Assembly: GCF_007754155.1 (NCBI RefSeq)
Contig: NZ_CP037423.1
Span: forward strand, 6,072,567-6,136,566
Reading direction: 5' to 3'
Source: Stieleria neptunia
GTDB lineage: Bacteria > Planctomycetota > Planctomycetia > Pirellulales > Pirellulaceae
DNA length: 64,000 bases
The first letter of the stretch is position 1. Each line of letters opens with the position of its first letter. A program made the position numbers and the translations under genes. The notes beneath the pieces were generated by a model that saw only the letters and a program-made list of their open reading frames with translations, was not told the origin of the DNA and ran no database searches. Shown piece after piece: positions 49,850 to 62,896 of the stretch.

Positions 49850-51334
49850 ATGCCTGCGCCTCACTTGTGGCTTGCGCGTCTGCGCGGTGCGTCGATCACC
49901 CTTGTCGCCGTCCTGCTGACGATCGTTGTTGGCGTCGCAGTCGGAACGAATCCCCTGTCTCGGTTTCGTGGGGCCGATCCGGTGGCGGACGAAACGGAGG
50001 CGGACCATGACCCGCACGAAGGACATGACCACGGCGAATCTTCCCAAGCCGAATCGGTTGCGCTCAGCAAGCAGGCTCGGGCCAACATGGGACTGCGAAC
50101 CGCGACGGTCGAAGCCGGGCGATACACGCAATACATGGAGGTCCCGGGCGTGGTGACCCAGTGGCCGGGACGGACGCACATTGCGGTGACCAGCCCATTG
50201 ACGGGCGTGCTAAATTCGATCTTGGTTTCGCGAGGGGAGTTGGTCAAAAGTGGCGCCCCGCTGTTCACACTGCGATTGACTCACCAAGACCTGGTCAACA
50301 CCCAGGAGACGTTTTTGACAAAGTTGGGCGAGCTGGATGTGGAACAGCGAGAGATCGATCGTCTGTCGTCGGTTGCGACGTCCGGGGCCATCGCCGGCAA
50401 AACGCTGTTGGCCCGTCAGTACGAGCGCGACAAACTGATGGCGGGTGTTCGGGCGGCGCGGCAAGCGATGTTGTTGCACGGTTTGACTGAGCAGCAGATC
50501 ATGCAGATCGAACGATCGCGGGTGTTGATTCGTGAGATCACGGTTTACGCTCCCTTGATTCATGAAGACGATTCGTTGCACCACGAATCGCTCGGCCATG
50601 CCAACGATCGTCTTTCCGAATCATCGACGGAGCGTTACGCGTCGATGCTTCAACCTCCGGTGCCGCCGGCCGAGCATCGCCATGTGGAGGCGGAGTTTCT
50701 GGTGACCGAGCTGTTGGCTCGCCGCGGCGAATCGGTCAGCGCCGGCGACGAGTTGGCCCAGCTGTCTGATTTCAGCCAGGTGCTGATCGAAGGCCAGGCG
50801 TTCCAACGGGACGGAAAGGCGTTGCGAAGAGCGGCCGATACCGGGGCCGATGTTCAAGCCATCATCGAATCCTCCGGTGAAGGGCCTGAGCTGATCGACG
50901 GGCTGAAAGTGGTATACATCGGAAACGAAGTCGATCGCCGATCACGCGCCCTGCCGTTTTACGTCTCGCTGACCAACCAAGTGGAACGGACCGAACAAAG
51001 TGGCGACAAACGCTACATCAGTTGGCTGTACAAACCGGGGCAACGATTGACCGTTCGGCTGCCGATCTCGCAAGTCGAAAACGCGATTGTCGTTCCCAAA
51101 GACGCCGTCGCCGAAGAAGGGGCCGAGCGGTATCTGTTCGTCGAAAACGGCGACCACTTCGATCGCGTCCCGGTGTCCATCATTGCCCGCGACTCGGTCC
51201 ACGTCGCGATCCACAATGACGGACAAGTCTGGCCGGGACAGGTGATCGCCGTCAGCGGCGCCCACCAATTGCAAATGGCCATGAAGAACCAGTCCGGCGC
51301 CGCGATCGATCCCCACGCCGGCCACAACCACTGA
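49850..51334 (+). CDS. Heavy-metal RND efflux adaptor (CusB/CzcB-like)
   Basis: This membrane-fusion subunit has 494 residues. An N-terminal hydrophobic segment (about 10-30) is followed by a histidine-rich stretch ADHDPHEGHDHGE (about 49-61). Lipoyl halves (VVTQWPGRTHIAVTSPLTG and FLVTELLARRGESVSAGDEL), a hairpin, and beta-barrel domains follow, ending in another His-rich tail DPHAGHNH. The His clusters suggest binding of zinc, copper, cobalt or silver before transfer to the pump. AGGGAA lies about 9 bases upstream of the ATG. The permease gene follows 75 bases later. Confidence 0.92.
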   Translation: MPAPHLWLARLRGASITLVAVLLTIVVGVAVGTNPLSRFRGADPVADETEADHDPHEGHDHGESSQAESVALSKQARANMGLRTATVEAGRYTQYMEVPGVVTQWPGRTHIAVTSPLTGVLNSILVSRGELVKSGAPLFTLRLTHQDLVNTQETFLTKLGELDVEQREIDRLSSVATSGAIAGKTLLARQYERDKLMAGVRAARQAMLLHGLTEQQIMQIERSRVLIREITVYAPLIHEDDSLHHESLGHANDRLSESSTERYASMLQPPVPPAEHRHVEAEFLVTELLARRGESVSAGDELAQLSDFSQVLIEGQAFQRDGKALRRAADTGADVQAIIESSGEGPELIDGLKVVYIGNEVDRRSRALPFYVSLTNQVERTEQSGDKRYISWLYKPGQRLTVRLPISQVENAIVVPKDAVAEEGAERYLFVENGDHFDRVPVSIIARDSVHVAIHNDGQVWPGQVIAVSGAHQLQMAMKNQSGAAIDPHAGHNH

Positions 51335-51408
51335 TCGTCGAGCGAAAGCCCCCCTCGCGCTCCAATGTCCCCTTTGCTCCGGAAACGGAAATCGACCGCT
51401 CTGCGACC

Positions 51409-54400
51409 ATGTTAGACAAAATCATCTCCTTTTCGCTCAACAATCGGCTGATCGTGCTGGCCGTGGCCGCGATGTTGCTGCTCGTCGGCGGCTATCAAAC
51501 CACGCGGTTGCCGATCGACGTCTTTCCCAACTTGAACCGTCCGCGGGTGGTGGTGATTACCGAAGCCCCCGGCATGGCTCCCGAAGAAGTCGAAGCGTTG
51601 ATCACGTTTCCGCTGGAAACCGCGTTCAATGGGGCCAGCGGTGTCGAAGCGGTCCGTAGCAGCAGCGGCATCGGTCTGTCGGTCATCTACGTCGAATTCG
51701 ACTGGAACACCGACATCTACAACGATCGACAGGTGGTCACCGAACGGTTGCAGCTGGCGACCGATCAACTGCCCGACGGCGTCAAGCCGACCCTGGCGCC
51801 GATTTCGTCCATCATGGGACAGATCCTGATGTACGGGATGTGGAGCGAAGCAGGCCAGACGCCGCCGATGGAAGTGCGAACGCTGGCCGATTGGGTGGTC
51901 CGCCAACGCCTGTTGACCATCCCGGGGGTTTCCCAAGTGTTCACGATGGGCGGCGGCCGGATGCAGTACCAGGTGCTGGTCGACCCGGACGCGCTGCGTT
52001 CGTTTGACCTGACGATGCACGATGTGCACACCGCCGTGGCCGAATCGAATCTGAACGCGACCGGCGGCTATTTAGACGAACGCGGTGCCAACGAGTTGCT
52101 CGTCCGCGGCTTGGGACGAATCACAAGTTTGGACGAGTTACGGGGAATCGCCATCACGTTGCGGGAAGGTCGCGCGATCACGCTCGGCGACGTCGCCCGT
52201 GTCGTCGAGGGCGTCCAAGAAATGCGCGGCGATTCATCGGCCTACATCCGTGACGGGGACGGAGCCATCCAAGGCGGCCCGGCCGTGGTGCTGACCGTCA
52301 ACAAGCAACCCGGAAGCGATACGCGTGCGGTCGACCGGGCGATCGAGCAAGCCTTGGAGGAACTGAAGATCGCGCTGCCGGACGACATCCGTATTGCCAA
52401 CGTCTATTCGCAACGATCCTTCATCGATCGGGCGATCGAAAACGTCGTCGAGGCGCTGGCCGACGGCGGAGTGCTGGTGTTGGTGATCCTGTTCTTGTTT
52501 CTGCTCAATTTCCGTACCACCTTCATCACACTGACGGCCATCCCGCTGTCCATCATTGCCACCGCCTGCGTCTTCGCCGCGTTCGGATTGTCGATCAACA
52601 CGATGACGCTGGGCGGTTTGGCTGTCGCGATCGGTGAATTGGTTGATGATGCGATCGTCGATGTCGAAAACATCTTTCGCCGGCTGAAGGAAAACCGAAA
52701 CGCGGTCAATCCTCGGCCAATCCTGAAGGTCGTTTACGAAGCCAGCATCGAAGTCCGCAGCAGCGTCGTGTACGGCACGGCCATCGTCGTGCTGGTTTTC
52801 ATTCCGCTGTTTGCACTCGAAGGCATGGAAGGCAAGCTGTTTGTGCCGCTGGCGATGGGCTACGTGGTCTCGCTGGTTGTGTCCCTGGCCGTCTCGTTGA
52901 CCGTGACCCCGGTTCTGGCGTCACTGCTGCTGGTCGGTCGGCGGGTGTGGCGATTGGTTTTACCGGTGTTGTCGCTGGGCATCGCGGCCTTGATCGTGTA
53001 CTGGGTGCTGCCCCGAGCGGTGGATCTGTTGTCGCTGCCGCTGGAGTTGCCAGGCGATCCGCTTTGGTGGTCGATCGGATTGACGCCGGTCATTTTGATC
53101 GGGATTGAGACGCTGGAAATGTGGCTGGGCGGAGAAACCGCGGAGGAAGGTCGGTTGCTGGAAGGGTTGAAGGGGATCGCCGGATTGGCGATCAACCTGA
53201 GCACGCGCATGTCCGGGCCGGTCTTGGCGATCGCCGCGGTGTTGGTCGCTTTTGCACTGATCGCAGCATCCCAATTGGAACGTGATTTCTTACCTCCCTT
53301 CAATGAAGGCTCGGTGCAGGTCAACGCGTTGCTCGCCCCCGGCACGTCGTTGGCCACCAGCAACAAGATCGGCCAGTCGGTTCAACAACGATTGATGCAA
53401 ATTGACAACGTCCAATCGATCGCTCGGCGAACCGGACGAGCGGAGCTGGACGAACATGCCGAGGGCGTCAACGTCACCGAGTTGTTTTTGGAAATCGCCG
53501 ACGAGGCGGATCGCGAAGAGACGATCACCGAGATTCGACAAGCCATGGATGAAATTCCCGGAGTCGTTTCCAGCACCGAACAACCGCTCGCGCACTTGAT
53601 CAGCCACATGATCTCGGGCGTCAAAGCTCAGATCGGGATCAAACTCTACGGTGACGATTTAGACGTGCTGCGGAAGAAAGCCGAGGAAATGAAACAGCGG
53701 ATTGCCGGCGTCGAGGGGCTGGCGGACGTCTTGATCGAACAGCAAACCAATATCCCGCAATTGCGGATCGAACTCAATCGTAGGGCGTTGACGCAAAACG
53801 GTCTGCGCCCGGCGCATGTGATGGAAATCGTCCAGACCGCGATGAACGGAGAAGTCGTCAGCCAGGTGCTGCTCGGTCAACGCACGTTTGATCTACTCGT
53901 TCGGCTGGACGAACCGTTTCGAGAAGACGTCACGAAATTGAAGCGGCTGGTCATCCCGTTGCCGGACGGTGGGATGGTGCCGCTCGAGTCGGTCGCACGG
54001 ATCTACGAAAGTGGCGGCCCCAACATGATCAAACGCGAACAGGTCCGTCGACGCATCGTGTTGCAAGCCAACGTGTCCCAGCGAGGTGTCGTCGACGTCG
54101 TCAACGACATCAAGACGGCGTTGGCCGAGATGGAATTGGAACCGGGTTACTTCATCGAATACGGCGGACAGTTTGAAAGTCAGCAATCCGCATCCCGACG
54201 ATTGGCCTTGCTGTCGGTCGTCGCGCTGGTCGGCATGTTTCTGGTGCTGTACACCTTGTTCGGCAACGTGAACTTCTCGTTGCAGGTCCTGGTTGCCCTG
54301 CCGACCGCATTCATCGGGGCGGTCGCCGCGCTGGTTCTGACCGACCAAAACCTGACCGTCGCTGCGATGGTCGGTTTCATCTCGCTGTGTGGGATCGCCA

Positions 54401-54780
54401 GCCGCAATGGCATTTTATTGCTGAATCACTATCTGCATCTGGTCGAGCACGAAGGCGAATCTTGGACGCCAGAAATGGTCACGCGGGCCGGCCAAGAGCG
54501 GATGGCGCCGGTGCTGATGACGGCGCTGACCAGTGGCATCGGGTTGCTGCCGTTGGCGTTGGCCGCGGGCGAACCCGGCAAAGAGATCCTGTACCCGATC
54601 GCCACCGTGATCGTCGGCGGATTGCTGACCAGCACGTTGGCGGAGTTCTTTGTCCGCCCGGCGCTGTTCTGGACCATCGGTCTTGGTGCCGGCCGACAAA
54701 TTTTGAAAGACAGATCGTCACACGTTGTGGCGACATCCACCGATGATAAATCCCCCTCACCCCTTGAGAGAACCCGATGA
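51409..54780 (+). CDS. Heavy-metal RND efflux permease (CusA/CzcA-like)
   Basis: The inner-membrane pump has 1,123 residues. It starts MLDKIISFSLNNRLIVLAVA, typical of the heavy-metal (HME) subfamily. The segment AVAIGELVDDAIVDVENIF carries the paired Asp of the proton path. The periplasmic part has SIMGQILMYGMWSEA and GGRMQYQVLVDPDAL, also HME-like. An additional hydrophobic stretch of about 60 residues (around 515-575) between helices makes it longer than usual. It overlaps the next gene by 4 bases. Metal specificity cannot be read reliably from the sequence. No outer-membrane factor gene is nearby. Confidence 0.95.
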   Translation: MLDKIISFSLNNRLIVLAVAAMLLLVGGYQTTRLPIDVFPNLNRPRVVVITEAPGMAPEEVEALITFPLETAFNGASGVEAVRSSSGIGLSVIYVEFDWNTDIYNDRQVVTERLQLATDQLPDGVKPTLAPISSIMGQILMYGMWSEAGQTPPMEVRTLADWVVRQRLLTIPGVSQVFTMGGGRMQYQVLVDPDALRSFDLTMHDVHTAVAESNLNATGGYLDERGANELLVRGLGRITSLDELRGIAITLREGRAITLGDVARVVEGVQEMRGDSSAYIRDGDGAIQGGPAVVLTVNKQPGSDTRAVDRAIEQALEELKIALPDDIRIANVYSQRSFIDRAIENVVEALADGGVLVLVILFLFLLNFRTTFITLTAIPLSIIATACVFAAFGLSINTMTLGGLAVAIGELVDDAIVDVENIFRRLKENRNAVNPRPILKVVYEASIEVRSSVVYGTAIVVLVFIPLFALEGMEGKLFVPLAMGYVVSLVVSLAVSLTVTPVLASLLLVGRRVWRLVLPVLSLGIAALIVYWVLPRAVDLLSLPLELPGDPLWWSIGLTPVILIGIETLEMWLGGETAEEGRLLEGLKGIAGLAINLSTRMSGPVLAIAAVLVAFALIAASQLERDFLPPFNEGSVQVNALLAPGTSLATSNKIGQSVQQRLMQIDNVQSIARRTGRAELDEHAEGVNVTELFLEIADEADREETITEIRQAMDEIPGVVSSTEQPLAHLISHMISGVKAQIGIKLYGDDLDVLRKKAEEMKQRIAGVEGLADVLIEQQTNIPQLRIELNRRALTQNGLRPAHVMEIVQTAMNGEVVSQVLLGQRTFDLLVRLDEPFREDVTKLKRLVIPLPDGGMVPLESVARIYESGGPNMIKREQVRRRIVLQANVSQRGVVDVVNDIKTALAEMELEPGYFIEYGGQFESQQSASRRLALLSVVALVGMFLVLYTLFGNVNFSLQVLVALPTAFIGAVAALVLTDQNLTVAAMVGFISLCGIASRNGILLLNHYLHLVEHEGESWTPEMVTRAGQERMAPVLMTALTSGIGLLPLALAAGEPGKEILYPIATVIVGGLLTSTLAEFFVRPALFWTIGLGAGRQILKDRSSHVVATSTDDKSPSPLERTR

Positions 54781-55310
54781 AAATCACCTTCACTTGCATT
54801 TCCGTGGTCGCATTGGCCGTCGTGTTAGCCGGATGCAATCCCTCGACGAACCCGGCGAACTCCGCGACCGATAATCCGAACACCGAATCCGCAAACACCG
54901 AATCCGACGCGTCGACTGACACCCACGATGACCACGGACATCCCGAGCACGGCCCACACGGGGGCGATCTCGTGGAACTCGGCAAAGAAGCCTTTCATGC
55001 CGAGCTGGTCCATGGTGCCGACGGGGTCTCGATGTACGTCCTGGATTCCTCCGCGACGAAGCCGGTTCCCATTGCGGCCGCCAAACTGGTCGTCAGTCTG
55101 AAACGCGATGGCCAAGTCGCTTCATTCGATTTGTCGGCCAATCCCGACGCGAACGATCCGCCCGAACAATCATCCCGATTTACATCGGCCGATGAAAAAC
55201 TGGACCAATGGCTCGATGCCGGTGCCGAAGGTGCGGTGGTGATCGAGATCGAAGGAAAGTCGTACACGGGCAATGTTGCGCACGAGCATGATCACGATCA
55301 CGATCACTAA
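54777..55310 (+). CDS. His-rich lipoprotein of the metal-efflux operon
   Basis: This 177-residue protein has a signal ending VVLAGC (Cys at about 20), so it is lipid-anchored. A low-complexity Asn/Thr/Ser stretch follows, then DTHDDHGHPEHGPHGGDLV (about 47-65). A compact beta domain (about 70-165, LGKEAFHAELVH, VLDSSATKPVPI) follows, and the C-terminus is HEHDHDHDH. It probably binds the ion that the pump exports. Translation is coupled to the permease by a 4-base overlap. Confidence 0.85.
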   Translation: MKITFTCISVVALAVVLAGCNPSTNPANSATDNPNTESANTESDASTDTHDDHGHPEHGPHGGDLVELGKEAFHAELVHGADGVSMYVLDSSATKPVPIAAAKLVVSLKRDGQVASFDLSANPDANDPPEQSSRFTSADEKLDQWLDAGAEGAVVIEIEGKSYTGNVAHEHDHDHDH

Positions 55311-55489
55311 ATCACCGTCAACTTTTAAGCGGAGGGTGCGTAGCCCGAATGGGACGGACAAGAATGTTGGTGTGCAGGCTTTGGCCGCCACTGTCGCTGC
55401 GTCGCAGCGACAGTGAATTGCCCAAAGTCTCATTTTCCGTTGGATCCCAATCCGGGTGTGTTGACAGCACGAGAACCTTTTCTATTCTA
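55311..55489. other. Gap before the riboswitch with a dispersed repeat
   Basis: It contains one member (55345-55385) of a repeat family with CCCGAATGG-GACGG and GTTGGTGTGCAG, followed by a hairpin CACTGTCGCTGCG/TCGCAGCGACAGTG. A relative is at 61872-62158. No gene was seen. Confidence 0.6.
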
Positions 55490-55710
55490 CGGCCCGTTCG
55501 AGGTGACTCGCCGGGTTTCAGCCGGGCGGGTGAACAGGGAACTCCGGTGAAATTCCGGGACGGTCCGGCCGCTGTGTGCCACCCGCGATTCCATTTGGAT
55601 CGCATCCATCGCTTCTGTCTTAGAAAGAGCCATTGTTCGCAAAACATGTGAACGAGAAGGCCGTGAGCGATGGGAAACGGTGGCGAGTCAGAAGACCTAC
55701 CTCGCGAAGA
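55490..55710 (+). promoter_or_regulatory. Cobalamin (B12) riboswitch
   Basis: The conserved core GGTGAACAGGGAACTCCGGT (from 55529), continuing GAAATTCCGG to 55558, matches the GGGAA-CCGGTG-AATCCGG pattern of cobalamin aptamers, and CCGCTGTGTGCCAC follows. The B12-box-like sequence GAGTCAGAAGACCTACC (55685-55701) closes the fold about 130 bases later, as expected. It lies 227 bases before the PEP-CTERM gene on the same strand. The switch point (terminator or masked ribosome site) was not identified. Confidence 0.88.
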
Positions 55711-55936
55711 CGTTTGGGTGCCTTCCTGGATTGAGGCAGACGTTGCGGTGCGCGAGGTCATCGCGCATTGGCTTGATTTCAACCCGTTCACACACCGTAC
55801 GAACACGTTTCTGCGCCGGCGTTGCTCGCCCGTCCCCTACTGAGTCGTTGACCGCGACGAGTGGATCGCGATCGAGATGCGCGCCTTCCCGGATGCGTTG
55901 GTGCTGTGGAATGGATTCACGAAGGAGTTTTCTTGC

Positions 55937-56797
55937 ATGTTTCGCCATTTCATTTTGTCCGGCGCCGTCTTGTTTACGAGTGCCGCCTCGCCACTGTTTG
56001 CCGAGATTTACTCGGGTCCGACCGACACCACCCACGCGATCGACGGTGCGATCGCGGCGGATGATGGTAGACTCGTCGCGTGGGCCGACGTGATCGATTC
56101 GACGCGGACGATGTTTGGCCCGCGCGGCAGCACGTCGATCAATCAGACGGGCGGCTTCAACAGCCTGGGGGATCTCGACGCGACGGAGATCGCCGCCGGG
56201 GTTTCACCGGGTTTCTTGACCGTTTCGTTCTCGACGGGGATCGGAAACGGGGCCGGCCACGATTTTGCCGTGTTCGAAAATGGGTTCGTGTTCGGCCAGA
56301 ACACCGAAGGGACACCGGGGCTGTTTGCCGAGTTTGCCTACGTCGATGTGTCAACCAATGGGACCGATTTCGCTCGTTTCCCCAGCATCAGTTTGAACGA
56401 AGGCCCATTGCCGGGCGGTTTCGGAACCAACTTTTCTCCCTTCGACGTGACCAACGTTTATAACCTTGCCGGCAAGCACGCGGCCGGTTTCGGGACTCCG
56501 TTCGACCTAGACGATCTCAGCGCCGATCCGCTGGTCACCAGTGGGCTGCTTGATCTGAACAACATTCGCTATGTGCGTCTGTTCGATATCCCCGGCGATG
56601 GGTCGTTCACCGACAGCCAGGGAAATCCGATTGTCGACAACTGGATCACGTCCGGGTCGGGGGGATTTGACTTTCGACTCGGCGAAGGGATTGGCGTAGG
56701 CGTGTTGAACATCACCGCCGTGCCCGAACCCGGCGGGCTGGCGCTGCTGGGTTTGGTTGCCGGTGTCGGTTCGTTGCGCCGCCGACGGCGTCCGTAA
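55937..56797 (+). CDS. PEP-CTERM surface protein under B12 riboswitch control
   Basis: From the ATG at 55937 (AAGGAG 10 bases upstream) the protein has 286 residues. A signal peptide (about 4-22) leads to a beta-rich domain with [31 protein letters not shown] and [18 protein letters not shown], then [16 protein letters not shown]. The last 25 residues are VPEPGG, a hydrophobic helix and RRRRRP, the exosortase sorting signal. The DFAVFENGF pattern resembles exported proteins that I recall next to B12 riboswitches in other bacteria, but I cannot verify this here. Because the riboswitch should repress it when B12 is plentiful, B12 capture at the surface is the simplest role. Confidence 0.82.
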
Positions 56798-56841
56798 CGT
56801 GCGGAAAACATCGTTGCGTTCAATGAACGCCGTTGATTCGC

Positions 56842-58296
56842 CTACGCCAACACCTCTCCGATGACATGGCCTTCGACGTTTGTCAAACGGCGTTCGATGC
56901 CGTTGTGTTCGAACGTCAACCGCTCGTGATCGAGACCCAGCAGATGCAAAATCGTGGCGTTGAAGTCATACAGCGGATGAATGTCCTGGACCGCTTTTTG
57001 TCCCAGTTCATCCGTCATCCCGTGGCTGACACCCGGCTTGATTCCCGCGCCGGTCATCCAGCAGGTGAATCCGTCGGGGTTGTGATCGCGGCCCTTCGCG
57101 CCTTTTTGGAAAAACGGCATGCGACCGAACTCGGTGCACCACACCACCAACGTGTCTTCCAATAAACCGCGTGACTTCATGTCCTTGATCAGTGCCGCGG
57201 TCGGCTGGTCCAGGATGGCGGCGTGTTTGTCGTATTGTTCTTTCAGCTTGTTGTGCCCGTCCCAGTTGAGTTCTCCGCCGCTGGCATAAGCACCATTAAA
57301 CAACTGGACGAATCGGACGCCGCTCTCGATCAACCGTCGGGCGAGGATGCAGTTGCGGGCGAACGCGGCTCGGATCGGATTCGATTCGTCGTCGGCCCCA
57401 TAACTCTTCAAAACGTGGGCCGGTTCGGAATTCAAATCGGTGACCTCCGGGACGCTCAATTGCATCCGCGCGGCCAGTTCGTAGCTGGCGATCCGGGCCG
57501 CCAGCTTGTTATCGCCGGGATGTTGTTCCAAATGCCGAGCGTTCATCCGCTGCAGCAACGAACGGGTGGCACGATCGGCGTCGGAAGAGACGATCGGCGG
57601 GCTAAGATGTCGAATCGGTTCCTTGGAACTGAGCGGTGTGCCTTGGAACGCTGCTGGCAGAAACCCCGGTCCCCAATTGTTGGACCCGTTTTGTGGCACA
57701 CCGCGGGGATCCGGGATGGCCACGTACGCCGGCAGGTCTTGATTTTCACTGCCCAGGGCGTAGCTGGCCCAAGAGCCGACGCTGGGGAAACCATCCAACG
57801 GAGTTCCGGTGGAAAGAAAGTTCTCCGCCGGTCCGTGCGTGTTGCTCTTGCTGGTCAGCGAGTGAATGAAGGCGATGTCATCGGTCAATTCCGCCAGATG
57901 CGGAATCATGTCGCTGACCCACTTACCCGTTTCGCCGCGTTGACGAAAGTTGTATTGCGGACGGGCCAGGTTCCCGGCCGGTCCCTGAAACGTGACCGCC
58001 GGGCCGTCCTTGAGCGGCTGACCGTCGAACTGGATCAGTTCGGGTTTGTAGTCCCAGGTCTCCAACTGGCTGACCGCACCGGCACAAAAGATCACGACGA
58101 CACGCTTTGCCTTGCCGGGAAAGTGACTTTCCCGCGGCGCGAAGGGCCGGGCCGGATCGATCGTCGGCTGTGCGGCCAGCAAACGGTCTTGGGAAAGCAG
58201 ATCGAGCAGCGCGATCGATCCCAGTCCGGTCGCGGAACTGGTCAGGAACCCGCGTCGACTGAGAAATTGGCGTCCGATAGGGGAGAGGGGTTTCAT
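56842..58296 (-). CDS. DUF1501 family protein with Tat signal
   Basis: This 484-residue protein belongs to the sulfatase/alkaline-phosphatase-like superfamily, as DUF1501. A twin-arginine signal ([10 protein letters not shown], Arg14-Arg15) directs export. The core shows [20 protein letters not shown], then [27 protein letters not shown] and the end [12 protein letters not shown]. In planctomycetes it is nearly always paired with a PSCyt1-DUF1549-DUF1553 gene, which lies 150 bases upstream here. Its function is unknown, but a role in degrading polymeric substrates outside the cell has been proposed for the pair. Confidence 0.92.
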
Positions 58297-58329
58297 CTGG
58301 TGGCGGTCCGGCGAGTGCGTGGTTCGACC

Positions 58330-58428
58330 AGTGGCGTAAGCTTCCAGCTTGCGAATGCTCGGTCCGACGAGTGGCGTAAGCTTCCAGCTTGCGAATGCTC
58401 GGTCCGACAGGCTGGAAGCCTATCCCAC
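58330..58428. repeat. 40-bp tandem repeat and GGCTGGAAGCC unit
   Basis: Two copies of a 40-bp unit (58330-58369 and 58370-58409, one difference) read AGTGGCGTAAGCTTCCAGCT then TGCGAATGCTCGGTCCGAC. They are followed by GACAGGCTGGAAGCCTATCC (58406-58425), as at 36010 and 36038. The GCTTCCAGC part is an inverted variant of the GGCTGGAAGCC unit. Confidence 0.9.
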
Positions 58429-58445
58429 TGGTGTTTCGCTCGATA

Positions 58446-61400
58446 CTAAGGGAAGAATAAAAACTCATTGCTGTTGAACATTGCTCGGCAAAGTGTCTGC
58501 AAACCATACTCGCGAACGACCGGCAGCGCTTCGGCCATTTCACCGCGATCCGGCTCACGATTGAATCCGATCTGGTACGCGAGTTGGATCTGTTGACGGA
58601 GGTCCTCGCCCGCTTCGGTTTGCAATCGGGCCGCAAACGCAGCGGCTTGATCGATGGTGAAGCGACTGTTCAGCAGGTTGAGTGCTTGGATCGGCGTCGT
58701 GGATTCGATCCGTCGCGCGGTGCTTTGCCCCGCGTCGGGACAGTCGAACGCACCGAAAACTGCGTCCCGCTCACGTCGCACCTTGTGGGCATAGATCATC
58801 CGCCGCAGGCCATCGCCCGTAAATGATTCAACGGGCGTGAACCCCGACAACCCGCCACGCTTGTTGAACAAGTTGAATCCACGGCCTCCCATTTTAAGGT
58901 TCAACTGACCGCTGGCGGCGAGCATGCCGTCGCGGATCGCTTCGGCCTCCAATCGTCGCGACGGATAGCGCCACAACAGTCGCACGTCGGTGTCCTTGGC
59001 CGCCGCCGCTGCATCGGATTGAGTGGATTGGCGGTAGGTTGCCGACAACACGATCAGACGATGCATGTGTTTGATTGACCAACCCGATCGGATGAACTCC
59101 TGGGCCAACCAATCCAACAATTGGGGGTGCGATGGCTGGGACCCGTTGCGGCCAAAGTCGTTTGGCGTGTCGACCAGCCCGGTGCCAAAGTGCCATTGCC
59201 AGATCCGATTGACCATCACCCGTGCCGTGAGACGATTTTGTGGGCTGGCAATCCAGTCCGCCAGGGCTCGGCGGCGCTCTTGTTCGGCGGTCTCAGCCGG
59301 CAGCGCCAATTCTCCGAGAGCACTCAGAACGGCGGGGACCACCGGCTCTCGCGGTTGTTCGGGATCGCCGCGATTGAGTCGGGCGATGGCGTCGGGTTTG
59401 CGGAACTTGCCCGCGAACGCCAGTTTTCCTCGTTCGGCCGTTTTAATCTTTGCTTCCAGCGTTCGCTTCTCCTTCATCAAGCGATTCGCTTGCTGCGCAT
59501 CTTCGGCATTCAAGCCCACCGTCGAGAGTTGCCGGTCCGATGGGGTGTCGACGTCTGCGGCGCGACGGTCGCTGGAATCGGCGACCAGCTGCCAATCTTG
59601 ATCGGCCGTTGTTTCAATGCGGTACTCGGTCGGCAAACGATCCTGGAACTTACCTAAACGATCGCGGCTCCACGCGACTCGCACGATCTCCTGAGCTTCG
59701 GCAAATTCCAGTTCGACCCAGCCGGCACCGGTCTGTCCGGACATCCAACTGCGCGAGTTTCCGTAGCGGCCGTCGTGGATGAATCCCGGCTCGTGACGGT
59801 CGGCGACGATCGTATCGCTGGATGTGGTGAGTTTGGTCCCTGTGTCTGCCAAGGCAATGTTTTGGCCGGCGGCATTGAACACTTCCAGTTCGTCGAGACA
59901 CGGTTCCAGATTGTTGGTCGCAAGTACGGTAAAACGCAACCGTTTTGCTCGCACCGGCGCAAACCGATCCACGTTGATCGACGGAGAGACGGCGGCGCGT
60001 TGTGGCGGAACGTGCTTCAGCGTCTTCATGGCTTCGATCGACGGTCCCGCTTCGATCGTGTAGGCGGTGGCGAGCCGGTCGGTGTACTGCTGCTTGCGAT
60101 CGCGGCTCCACACGATCTTGGCGATCCGAGTGGGCTGGGGAAGTTCGAACATCAACCAGCCGCGTCCCTTCTCGTCGGACATCCAGCTTCGAGCATTGCC
60201 GAATTGACCATCGTGGACGTGTTCCAGTTTGTGGTTGGCCGACGTTCTGCTGCCCGACGCGGTGACCTTCGTTCCGTGCGAGGCGATGGCGACGTTTTGC
60301 GGGTCGGCACCGTCGGTGAAGATCTGGAATTCGTCCACACACGGCTCGATCAAACCGAGACTCGGGTGGCGATTGGCGTCATGAATCGTAAACCGAACAT
60401 ACTTCGCCGTCAGCGATTGAAAGGTTTCCGTGTTTTCAGCGGCGTTGGTGAGGTAGGTTTCCAGATCGCGATCGACACGCGGATGCGCCAGGGGGACGAA
60501 TCGGAGCAGTTGCTCGTCGATTTCGGAAACCCGTCGGCGCATCCCTTTTGCGTCTCGTTTCAGTGCATCGGATTCCGGCGAACGCATCTCGCGGTCGGCG
60601 TACTCGACGCCCGCGACGAACGCCTGCATGCTGTAGTAGTCCTTCGCGGAGATGGGATCGAATTTGTGATCATGACATCGCGCACACCCGACGCTCAGCC
60701 CGAGAAAGGTCTGTGAAACATTGTTGACGATTTCGTCCAGCGCATCCTGACGTGCCAGCCGTATCGACGGTGCGTCCTTGCCGATCTGACCCGGCAACAA
60801 AACCGAAGCCGTGATCAGAAAACCCGTTGCCGCGTCGGCACCCAATGCATCGCCCACGATTTGTTCCTTGATGAAACGATCGTAGGGGGTGTCGGCATTC
60901 ATTGCCGCAACGACGTAGTCACGATAGGGCCACGCATGGGGTCGTTCGGTGTTCACCTCGAACCCATGAGTATCGGCGTAACGGACGACGTCCAACCAAT
61001 GTTGTGCCCAACGTTCGCCGTATCGGGGTGATTTGAGCAAGCGGTCGACGACGGCGGTGTAGGCCGCATCACCGTGCTCGATCTGTTCCAGAAACTCGCC
61101 CACTTGCTGCGGCGTCGGAGGAAGACCGGTCAAATCAAACGTGGTGCGGCGGAGCCAGGTCACGGGGTCTGCCTCGTCGACAGGCGTCAGCCCATCTTGT
61201 TCCAGTCGCGCCAGGATAAAGCGATCGATCGCACCGCGTGGCCACCGGATGCGTTTGACGTCGGGGATCGGCGGCGAGGCCATCGGTTGAAACGACCAGT
61301 GATCCATTCGGTCTTCCAGTTCCGCCAGATCAACCCCGTCCGGCCAGCGGGCGCCTTCGTCAACCCATCGCGTCAGCGTTCGAATCTCGGTTGCCGAAAG

Positions 61401-61694
61401 CGGTTCGCCTTCCGGCGGCATCCGTGACCCTTCGTCTTCACTGGTGACCAACTCGATCAGTGGGCTCTCGTCCGCCTGCCCCACGATCAGGCTTGGTCCC
61501 CAGCCATCGCCACCCTCGAACGCTTCGGACTTGATGTCCAGCCGCAACCCGCTTTTCTGGTTCTCCGCGCCGTGGCAGGAGACGCAGTGCTGTTGAAAAA
61601 TCGGTTGCACGTCGCGGACAAAATCCACCTCAGACGCCAGGGTCGCGGTGGAGGGAAAGAGCATCAGAGCAATTGGAAGAAGAATTTTCTGCAT
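58446..61694 (-). CDS. PSCyt1-DUF1549-DUF1553 protein with two discoidin-like domains
   Basis: From the ATG at 61694 (AGGA 6 bases upstream) the protein has 1,082 residues. A signal peptide (about 1-20) precedes a cytochrome-like domain with one heme motif CVSCH (37-41). The DUF1549 domain follows (WVDEGARWPDG, VVRYADTHGFE). Then two related segments of about 85 residues carry HVHDGQFGNARSWMSDEKGR and FIHDGRYGNSRSWMSGQTGA, each followed by a VWSRDR-like strand. They look like a duplicated discoidin/F5-F8 C-type binding domain. The DUF1553 domain ends the protein (MVNRIWQWHFGTGLVDTPND; TTPIQALNLLNS). It is the partner of the DUF1501 gene. Confidence 0.92.
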   Translation of the reverse strand: MQKILLPIALMLFPSTATLASEVDFVRDVQPIFQQHCVSCHGAENQKSGLRLDIKSEAFEGGDGWGPSLIVGQADESPLIELVTSEDEGSRMPPEGEPLSATEIRTLTRWVDEGARWPDGVDLAELEDRMDHWSFQPMASPPIPDVKRIRWPRGAIDRFILARLEQDGLTPVDEADPVTWLRRTTFDLTGLPPTPQQVGEFLEQIEHGDAAYTAVVDRLLKSPRYGERWAQHWLDVVRYADTHGFEVNTERPHAWPYRDYVVAAMNADTPYDRFIKEQIVGDALGADAATGFLITASVLLPGQIGKDAPSIRLARQDALDEIVNNVSQTFLGLSVGCARCHDHKFDPISAKDYYSMQAFVAGVEYADREMRSPESDALKRDAKGMRRRVSEIDEQLLRFVPLAHPRVDRDLETYLTNAAENTETFQSLTAKYVRFTIHDANRHPSLGLIEPCVDEFQIFTDGADPQNVAIASHGTKVTASGSRTSANHKLEHVHDGQFGNARSWMSDEKGRGWLMFELPQPTRIAKIVWSRDRKQQYTDRLATAYTIEAGPSIEAMKTLKHVPPQRAAVSPSINVDRFAPVRAKRLRFTVLATNNLEPCLDELEVFNAAGQNIALADTGTKLTTSSDTIVADRHEPGFIHDGRYGNSRSWMSGQTGAGWVELEFAEAQEIVRVAWSRDRLGKFQDRLPTEYRIETTADQDWQLVADSSDRRAADVDTPSDRQLSTVGLNAEDAQQANRLMKEKRTLEAKIKTAERGKLAFAGKFRKPDAIARLNRGDPEQPREPVVPAVLSALGELALPAETAEQERRRALADWIASPQNRLTARVMVNRIWQWHFGTGLVDTPNDFGRNGSQPSHPQLLDWLAQEFIRSGWSIKHMHRLIVLSATYRQSTQSDAAAAAKDTDVRLLWRYPSRRLEAEAIRDGMLAASGQLNLKMGGRGFNLFNKRGGLSGFTPVESFTGDGLRRMIYAHKVRRERDAVFGAFDCPDAGQSTARRIESTTPIQALNLLNSRFTIDQAAAFAARLQTEAGEDLRQQIQLAYQIGFNREPDRGEMAEALPVVREYGLQTLCRAMFNSNEFLFFP

Positions 61695-61871
61695 CGGTTT
61701 CCTACCGGACGATGGTCGCACGTCTGGTTCTTCTCGCTGCCGGCGTTTGGTGGGGGATCAAGCGGAGTCGCGGAGGGGGCAAGTGACCATTCTAACCGCA
61801 ATCCGCCGGTCGTTGCATCTGCGATGCTTGCAATGCGTCGCGGCACGGATCGGCGGCAAATGAATCCTGCC

Positions 61872-62158
61872 CCGAATGGTACGGGGATAAGCGTTGGTGT
61901 GCAGACTTTAGAGACCGTCCAGCTTAGGGCTAGCGCGAAACGCGACAAATTTGAATGATCTGACCGAATGGGAGAGAGGTGGTCGGCGGAGGGGTGTACG
62001 ACGTCCTTTCTAGGTCGTCGCGCAGAGCCCCACGGGCGACGGCCCGGAAGGGCCATCGTACATCCGAAAAGCGATCGCCTAAAGCTGGACGGTCTCTTTC
62101 GCCGCCCCTTTCGCTGCGTCGCAGCGAAAGGGAATCGCCTAAAGGCTAAACACCAACG
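61872..62158. repeat. Element with GTTGGTGT ends
   Basis: The left end contains GTTGGTGTGCAGACTTTAGA then GACCGTCCAGCTTAG. The right end has CTAAAGCTGGACGGTCTC and finishes CTAAACACCAAC, so the ends are inverted to each other. A CCCTTTCGCTGCGTCGCAGC hairpin lies at the right end. A related left end with the same kind of hairpin is at 55345-55420. Confidence 0.65.
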
Positions 62159-62160
62159 GT

Positions 62161-62176
62161 GGCTGACAAAGCACTA
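62161..62176. repeat. Single terminal repeat of the 31254-type element
   Basis: GCTGACAAAGCACTAG is the exact complement of the left end CTAGTGCTTTGTCAGC at 31254-31269. No second end lies within 200 bases downstream. Confidence 0.75.
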
Positions 62177-62227
62177 GAATCGTTCTTTCTAGGTGACGGT
62201 TTTGGCTTGTGACCGCAACCGGTATGA

Positions 62228-62896
62228 TTGAAACGTTTCCATGACCGCCCGAGCGAACCTTTGACGAACGACGATCGCATCAAGCTCGATGCACCGCAGC
62301 AAGGCACGACCCGGTTGATCGCTGCGGCGCAGGCCGGCGACAGCGAAGCGCTCGGTGAATTGCTTAACAGTTACCGAAACTATCTGGTGTTCATGGCTCG
62401 AACCGGGCTGCACCATCACTTGCAGGGCAAAGCCGACCCGTCGGACATCGCTCAAGAGGTGTGTTTGGCCGCCCACGGAAACATCGCGGACTTTCAAGGC
62501 CAGACGGCGGAAGAATTCGCCGGCTGGCTGCGCGGCATCTTGTCCAATCTGCTGTCGATGCATGTTCGCAAGTTTTTGGGGACACAGAAACGCGATCCGC
62601 GACTGGAGCAACAGTTGAACGCCAGTTTGGCTAATGCGTCGGGGTTTCTGCAGTCGCGCATTGCCGCCGAGATCACGTCGCCCAGCCAACATTTCGCCCG
62701 CAAGGAAGCGTTTTTGCAACTCGCCGAGGCGCTCGAGTCGCTGCCGGAGGATTACCGGCGCGTGATCGTGTTGCGGCACGTCGATGGGCTGCCATTTGCG
62801 GACGTGGCCAAGGCGATGGGACGCAGTGTCGACAGCGTGGAAAAGTTGTGGGTGCGGGGGCTGGCGAAACTGAAGACGACGATGGGAGAGGTTTGA
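62228..62896 (+). CDS. ECF-type RNA polymerase sigma factor
   Basis: This protein of 222 residues (TTG at 62228) or 211 (TTG at 62262; neither has a good ribosome site) is a planctomycete-type ECF sigma factor. Region 2 includes ADPSDIAQEVCLAAHGNIAD and FAGWLRGILSNLLSMHVRKF. Region 4 includes LPEDYRRVIVLRHVDGLPF and the helix-turn-helix DVAKAMGRSVDSVEKLWVRG. The Ser/Thr kinase starts 2 bases after the stop. Such pairs suggest a sigma factor controlled by phosphorylation instead of a classical membrane anti-sigma factor. Confidence 0.92.
   Translation: MKRFHDRPSEPLTNDDRIKLDAPQQGTTRLIAAAQAGDSEALGELLNSYRNYLVFMARTGLHHHLQGKADPSDIAQEVCLAAHGNIADFQGQTAEEFAGWLRGILSNLLSMHVRKFLGTQKRDPRLEQQLNASLANASGFLQSRIAAEITSPSQHFARKEAFLQLAEALESLPEDYRRVIVLRHVDGLPFADVAKAMGRSVDSVEKLWVRGLAKLKTTMGEV

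Follow-up and report, generated by a model that had tools for sequence, protein, structure and literature searches.

A cobalamin riboswitch before the gene of a BtuH-like PEP-CTERM protein in Stieleria neptunia, a probable surface binder of cobamides

Why should a cobalamin riboswitch stand before the gene of a secreted protein that carries an exosortase-type sorting signal? The question was raised by a 64,000-nucleotide stretch of the Stieleria neptunia genome (NZ_CP037423.1, positions 6,072,567 to 6,136,566; hereafter the window), in which an original prediction had placed a cobalamin aptamer upstream of a PEP-CTERM protein gene. Our analysis led us to propose that this gene very probably encodes a riboswitch-controlled extracellular cobamide-binding protein, similar in function to BtuH of Bacteroides thetaiotaomicron and equipped with an exosortase-type tail in place of a lipid anchor. 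The aptamer, the exosortase tail and the distant likeness to BtuH together point to a probable surface B12 scavenger that uses a different sorting route. Among the papers listed in searches of open-access literature, none reported a B12 riboswitch or a B12-binding function for a PEP-CTERM protein.

A cobalamin aptamer upstream of a PEP-CTERM protein gene

A covariance-model search (cmscan) of the whole window gave a single Rfam match at gathering score, RF00174 Cobalamin, which covered the full length of the model (1-189 of 189) and thereby confirmed the claimed aptamer. The second half of the claim, a secreted protein with an exosortase signal, was borne out by a match of the C-terminus to the NCBIfam PEP-CTERM model and by a signal peptide judged by eye. 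The features of the locus are as follows.

55461..55488, + strand: promoter-like TTGACA-16-TATTCT overlapping the aptamer start (1 found vs 0.2 expected in shuffles)
55484..55718, + strand: cobalamin riboswitch aptamer, RF00174 (78.5 bits vs gathering score 31.5, E=1.2e-17)
55719..55738, + strand: hairpin TGCCT-TCCTGGATTG-AGGCA directly 3′ of the aptamer, kept in 6/6 aligned sequences
55921..55927, + strand: Shine-Dalgarno-like GAAGGAG, read from the sequence
55937..56797, + strand: gene of the 286-residue secreted BtuH-like PEP-CTERM protein (P0001), chosen start ATG 55937
55937..56002, + strand: signal peptide, residues 1-22 (hydrophobic N-terminus ending LFA, no lipobox cysteine)
56003..56716, + strand: BtuH-like domain, about residues 23-260, beta-rich
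56279..56281, + strand: codon of the invariant Asn115, aligned with Asn399 of BtuH2 (phosphate contact)
56720..56791, + strand: PEP-CTERM sorting tail, residues 262-285 (TIGR02595, 27.2 bits, cut-off 16)

The start of P0001 was set at ATG 55937, nine bases after GAAGGAG, while the list of open reading frames (ORFs) had used the upstream in-frame ATG 55877. The aptamer does lie upstream, as predicted, at a distance of 218 bases from the ATG rather than the 227 claimed earlier, and no gene lies between the two. When the window was aligned with five relatives, TTGACA was identical in all six sequences. The hairpin behind the aptamer is a possible L13-like partner of loop L5, but a scan for such kissing loops did not support the idea: candidates turned up in 23 of 51 riboswitches, their geometry varied, and the second riboswitch of this genome had none. 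The scan is not counted as evidence.

The PEP-CTERM tail scored slightly below the cut-off of the Pfam model PF07589 (19.6 bits vs 20.7). P0001 showed a weak match to LIC_13355 lipoproteins (24.0 bits vs 120) and no match to DUF4465 (PF14717) at E<=1. Its closest named relatives are from Planctomycetes bacterium TBK1r (86%) and Stieleria maiorica (84%), and 5927 homologues at E<=0.001 were found among 7998 scored candidates.

Conservation of the riboswitch link and of the neighbouring genes

The same arrangement was then sought in relatives, using the best 80 of 532 relatives from species genomes, which were selected with two protein patterns and without regard to any riboswitch. The results showed a cobalamin-clan aptamer at gathering score together with the gene in 62/80 loci (13/13, 12/14, 7/14, 13/14, 8/15 and 9/10 in the six locus batches). 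All 64 aptamers lie upstream of the BtuH-like gene and on its strand, either directly before it or with genes between, up to ~5 kb away. An nhmmer model derived from 28 of the aptamers themselves matched upstream in 67/80 loci, and a strict motif pattern was passed by 51/74 candidates at a background of 0.5%. Mapping by genome coordinates was dropped after coincidences on other contigs, and the cmscan count is the one used here. Most of the genomes that supplied the 80 loci have between one and three RF00174 matches, and none has more than ten, so that chance placement would probably be rare. The ten matches occur in the genome of one locus (L041, G172), a Desulfobacterales metagenome-assembled genome (MAG).

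In a separate sample of the phylum, 14/149 genomes gave a homologue match, one of which (G105) covers the tail only. Ten of the remaining 13, the genome of S. neptunia included, carry RF00174 upstream on the same strand (coordinates compared by eye), and in the other three (G053, G091, G128) the homologue sits at the end of its contig, which leaves hardly any sequence upstream. A cobalamin riboswitch is present in 127/149 genomes of this sample, which means that most of these switches control either other genes or relatives beyond the reach of the single query.

Two of the loci drew attention for their RNA elements. In a Fimbriimonadaceae MAG (L068:1949-2029, +) an aptamer of a different class, AdoCbl-II, stands before pilin, DUF4465 and BtuH-like genes. 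In a Desulfobacteraceae MAG (L059) a cyclic di-GMP (c-di-GMP)-I riboswitch (1937-2033, +, 54.1 bits) lies 204 bases before a cobalamin riboswitch (2237-2437, +), both upstream of a DUF4465 and a BtuH-like gene, and this locus is possibly under double control. For Methylophaga, c-di-GMP riboswitches followed by PEP-CTERM genes have been described (PMC12530212).

The genes around the BtuH-like gene point in the direction of B12 as well. Eight DUF4465 members that were tested bind B12 (PMC13398666), among them BtuJ1 and BtuJ2 (PMC12751083). DUF4465 is fused to the BtuH-like protein in 8/80 loci, six of these fusions being confirmed by Pfam, and is a same-strand neighbour within 3 kb in 25, so that one or the other holds for 33. 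TonB receptors are found no farther than 3 kb away in 20/80 loci but in only 2/33 planctomycete loci. Prepilin-like proteins (N_methyl or DUF1559), which were recognized among the ORFs by a motif pattern, occur at up to the same distance in 29/80 loci and 23/33 planctomycete loci, the 33 having been assigned from database titles (one, L023, is titled just 'bacterium'). DUF1559 pilin-like genes are common in planctomycetes. In a first count, which rests on mechanical ORFs and non-independent loci, near ORFs were compared with far ORFs of the same loci for pilins (29/294 vs 8/407, P=4e-6), DUF4465 (23/294 vs 2/407) and TonB receptors (17/294 vs 0/407). That count gave 9 fusions, 23 DUF4465 neighbours and 17 loci with TonB receptors, having included L072, which is in another frame, and missed L076; the figures of 8, 25 and 20 come from a recount on stop-to-stop frames. 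Pfam scans of ORF subsets found the same neighbour classes, with N_methyl in 3/46 intervening and 17/77 downstream chosen ORFs (short or minus-strand ORFs excluded). The TonB receptors near the gene in relatives matched TIGR01779 with 71-179 bits in 5/6 tested (no match in L086); as these scores are below the BtuB cut-off of 599.7, the receptors are not called BtuB here. Other tails also occur in the family, namely dockerin type I (L045:5725-6867, +, 24.8 bits, cut-off 22.9) and a type IX secretion system (T9SS) tail (L096:5911-6885, +, 41.6 bits, cut-off 27).

Resemblance of the secreted domain to BtuH

The predicted structure of the P0001 domain shows the fold of the C-terminal B12-binding domain of BtuH, and its two best structural matches are BtuH domains, clear of the next fold in this model-based comparison, with identities of 14 and 21% in the structural alignments. 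A second structure model reached a pLDDT of 90.0. The first Foldseek match was 8blw_B. When a diverse family profile (A2) was searched against the PDB, 8blw_B was the sole sequence found (E=0.003), and within this BtuG1 fusion protein the match falls on the BtuH part. PDB searches with the single protein and with a planctomycete-only profile (A1) found no BtuH, and a search with the Bacteroidales relative L096 as query gave matches to T9SS tails only. Profile-profile alignment (hhalign) with nine Bacteroidales BtuH proteins gave P=3.7e-5, compared with 0.31 and 0.45 for unrelated alignments. Asn115 is invariant in all three alignments (40/40, 39/39 and 56/56 sequences).

The same comparisons bear on the alternative that the domain is a discoidin/CBM32-like carbohydrate module. 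The protein would then be part of a matrix or biofilm and be expressed according to B12 status, but would not bind B12. We consider this unlikely: sugar modules trail BtuH by 3 Z units in the structural comparison, the family profile retrieves no sugar-binding PDB chain, and the DUF4465 fusions and neighbours and the TonB receptors fit uptake better.

P0001 shares with BtuH (BtuH1, BtuH2 and the BtuH domain of BtuG1; PMC8941943, PMC10404256) the predicted B12-binding-domain fold, an Asn aligned with the phosphate-contacting one and, by prediction, secretion and control by cobalamin riboswitches. It differs in having a PEP-CTERM tail for the lipoprotein anchor, in lacking PKD and propeller domains, in its very low identity, in the absence of btuB beside the gene in the window, and in its occurrence in other phyla. 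The lipoprotein signal of BtuH is absent, there being no cysteine in the N-terminal 22 residues; with no lipobox cysteine and a PEP-CTERM tail instead, the protein is called BtuH-like and is not filed as BtuH.

Several results weigh against a riboswitch-controlled cobamide binder. On the side of the RNA, eighteen of the 80 loci (L028, L034, L038, L039, L040, L043, L047, L048, L052, L056, L067, L069, L078, L080, L081, L082, L083 and L084) have no aptamer at gathering score. Five of them gave nhmmer matches (L034, L048, L052, L080 with a weak E=0.004, and L082), L048, L052 and L082 also have RF00174 over its cut-off at the corresponding place in genome-level scans, and L039, L047, L069 and L084 start near a contig end. 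In the window, terminator-like sites were as frequent as in shuffles (2 found vs 2.0 expected) with no clear expression platform, RNA folding was unremarkable (z -1.2), and ~200 bases between the post-aptamer hairpin and the ATG are unconserved in the six-sequence alignment. The lack of an evident platform and the unconserved bases would also fit an aptamer without control over the P0001 gene, either a relic or part of a different transcript. Such a reading is highly improbable, given that in 62/80 loci from many phyla the aptamer has stayed with the gene, always on its strand, and that the window has no other gene between the two. On the side of the protein, sequence similarity to BtuH is thin (E=0.003, and an hhalign probability of 71 over 71 columns), the global hhalign alignment reached a probability of just 12, Foldseek gave no match under E=0.001, and none of the six TonB-receptor matches in the genome is over the BtuB cut-off. 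Moreover, Gln333 of BtuH2 is unconserved in the family, and the corrin contacts Tyr510, Trp511, Trp577 and His476 of BtuH2 could not be placed.

This partial conservation of the contacts (Asn399 yes, Gln333 no) would also fit a protein that does not hold intact cobamides but something else tied to B12, for example one of its precursors, a damaged corrinoid or cobalt. That is very unlikely in our view, as the retained phosphate contact, of the Asn399 type, is one to the nucleotide loop that complete cobamides carry (PMC8941943).

We return to an extracellular cobamide binder under riboswitch control, as suggested by sequence and predicted structure through the riboswitch linkage, the BtuH-like fold and signature, and the DUF4465 fusions and neighbourhood. 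The original prediction of a surface cobalamin or corrinoid binder with a non-Bacteroidetes sorting system is thus supported; its comparison with BtuG holds for the proposed surface capture of cobamides, but should name the BtuH domain as the known relative in place of the beta-propeller of BtuG. When cobalamin is scarce, the aptamer would be empty and the gene on; ample cobalamin would bind the aptamer and shut the gene off. We infer this OFF direction because cobalamin-riboswitch promoters of B. thetaiotaomicron are nearly shut by B12 (PMC12751083). The protein would be exported and processed by an exosortase, and its BtuH-like domain would capture cobamides outside the cell and hold them for uptake, with a presumed hand-over to a transporter.

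A second riboswitch unit and the B12 economy of the genome

The genome (10,975,817 bases, one contig) holds two RF00174 matches, the second of which (8998252-8998518, -, 58 bits) heads another unit.

L003:11378-13519 = genome 8996377-8998518, - strand: second cobalamin riboswitch unit, before a DUF1559 pseudopilin gene and a DUF4465 gene

The pseudopilin of this unit carries DUF1559 (PF07596) and a prepilin motif (TIGR02532, 22.5 bits, cut-off 16.3). The DUF4465 protein is the only DUF4465 match of the genome and resembles B12-bound BtuJ1 (9fct, E=7e-19); its PEP-type tail scores exactly the cut-off of TIGR02595 (16.0), and Pfam at E<=0.1 does not list it. Four relatives, Rhodopirellula rubra (L019), R. 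baltica (L029) and the MAGs L020 and L022, have a single riboswitch followed by a BtuH-like PEP-CTERM gene, a pseudopilin gene and a DUF4465 gene, the BtuH-like match in R. baltica spanning residues 90-285 only. The pilin of the second unit is 58, 36, 55 and 59% identical to the pilins of L019, L029, L020 and L022, respectively. The P0001 gene thus appears to belong to a B12 regulon whose parts are joined in one unit in these relatives, and it probably works together with the pseudopilin and DUF4465 protein of the second unit.

The genome has a MetH-type methionine synthase and a methylmalonyl-CoA mutase. CbiC, which marks the synthesis of the corrin ring and was the one biosynthesis gene searched for, gave no match. 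This combination fits a B12 consumer. FecCD gave one weak and partial match (36.8 bits). Five exosortase matches exceeded the Pfam cut-off, and the two that were scanned further were both over TIGR02602.

Within the window, the P0001 gene appears to stand alone. A CusA/CzcA-type efflux cluster lies upstream (49850-55310), comprising a membrane-fusion protein, a CusA/CzcA permease (781.7 bits, cut-off 701.45) and a small His-rich protein that is probably lipid-anchored. Between this heavy-metal efflux cluster and the riboswitch, a near-perfect inverted repeat at 55389-55415 consists of CACTGTCGCTGCG and its complement; it is perhaps a terminator, and no second copy was found in the window at up to 3 mismatches. 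DUF1501 and PSD1 genes follow downstream on the opposite strand. The predicted absence of btuB, btuF, btuC and btuD nearby agreed with the Pfam matches of the seven ORFs scanned (49850-62893), the first 48 kb being outside the protein scan.

Comparison with other systems sets the proposed function in context. DUF4465/BtuJ proteins (PMC13398666, PMC12751083) are likewise secreted, B12-linked and under cobalamin riboswitches, and are often fused to or adjoin the P0001 family, but they form a separate jelly-roll family. BtuG surface lipoproteins differ in their beta-propeller, the P0001 match being confined to the BtuH part of the BtuG1 fusion. The nearest precedent found for an exosortase-type nutrient scavenger is ZepA of Anabaena, a PEP-CTERM exoprotein that scavenges zinc and is proposed to supply the cell with a scarce nutrient; it has another ligand and another regulator (Zur), and is likened here by description only (PMC10957091). 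A bolder proposal, which we hold to be rather doubtful, is that planctomycetes have their own B12 capture machine under cobalamin riboswitches. Its parts would be a BtuH-like binder sorted by an exosortase, a second binder of the DUF4465 family and a dedicated pseudopilin, and the pilin-like protein, not a neighbouring TonB receptor, would display or move the binders.

Most of what is known about surface binders that scavenge B12 comes from gut Bacteroidetes. Our results place a BtuH-like putative binder under cobalamin riboswitches in Planctomycetota, Verrucomicrobiota, Lentisphaerales, Cyanobacteria, Desulfobacterales and other proteobacteria, as well as in Spirochaetes, Sumerlaeota, Fimbriimonadaceae and Bacteroidales (taxa from database titles), with PEP-CTERM, T9SS or dockerin tails across the family. 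A large family of secreted proteins without a name would in this way acquire a function that can be tested, and a family of exosortase substrates would acquire a candidate ligand.
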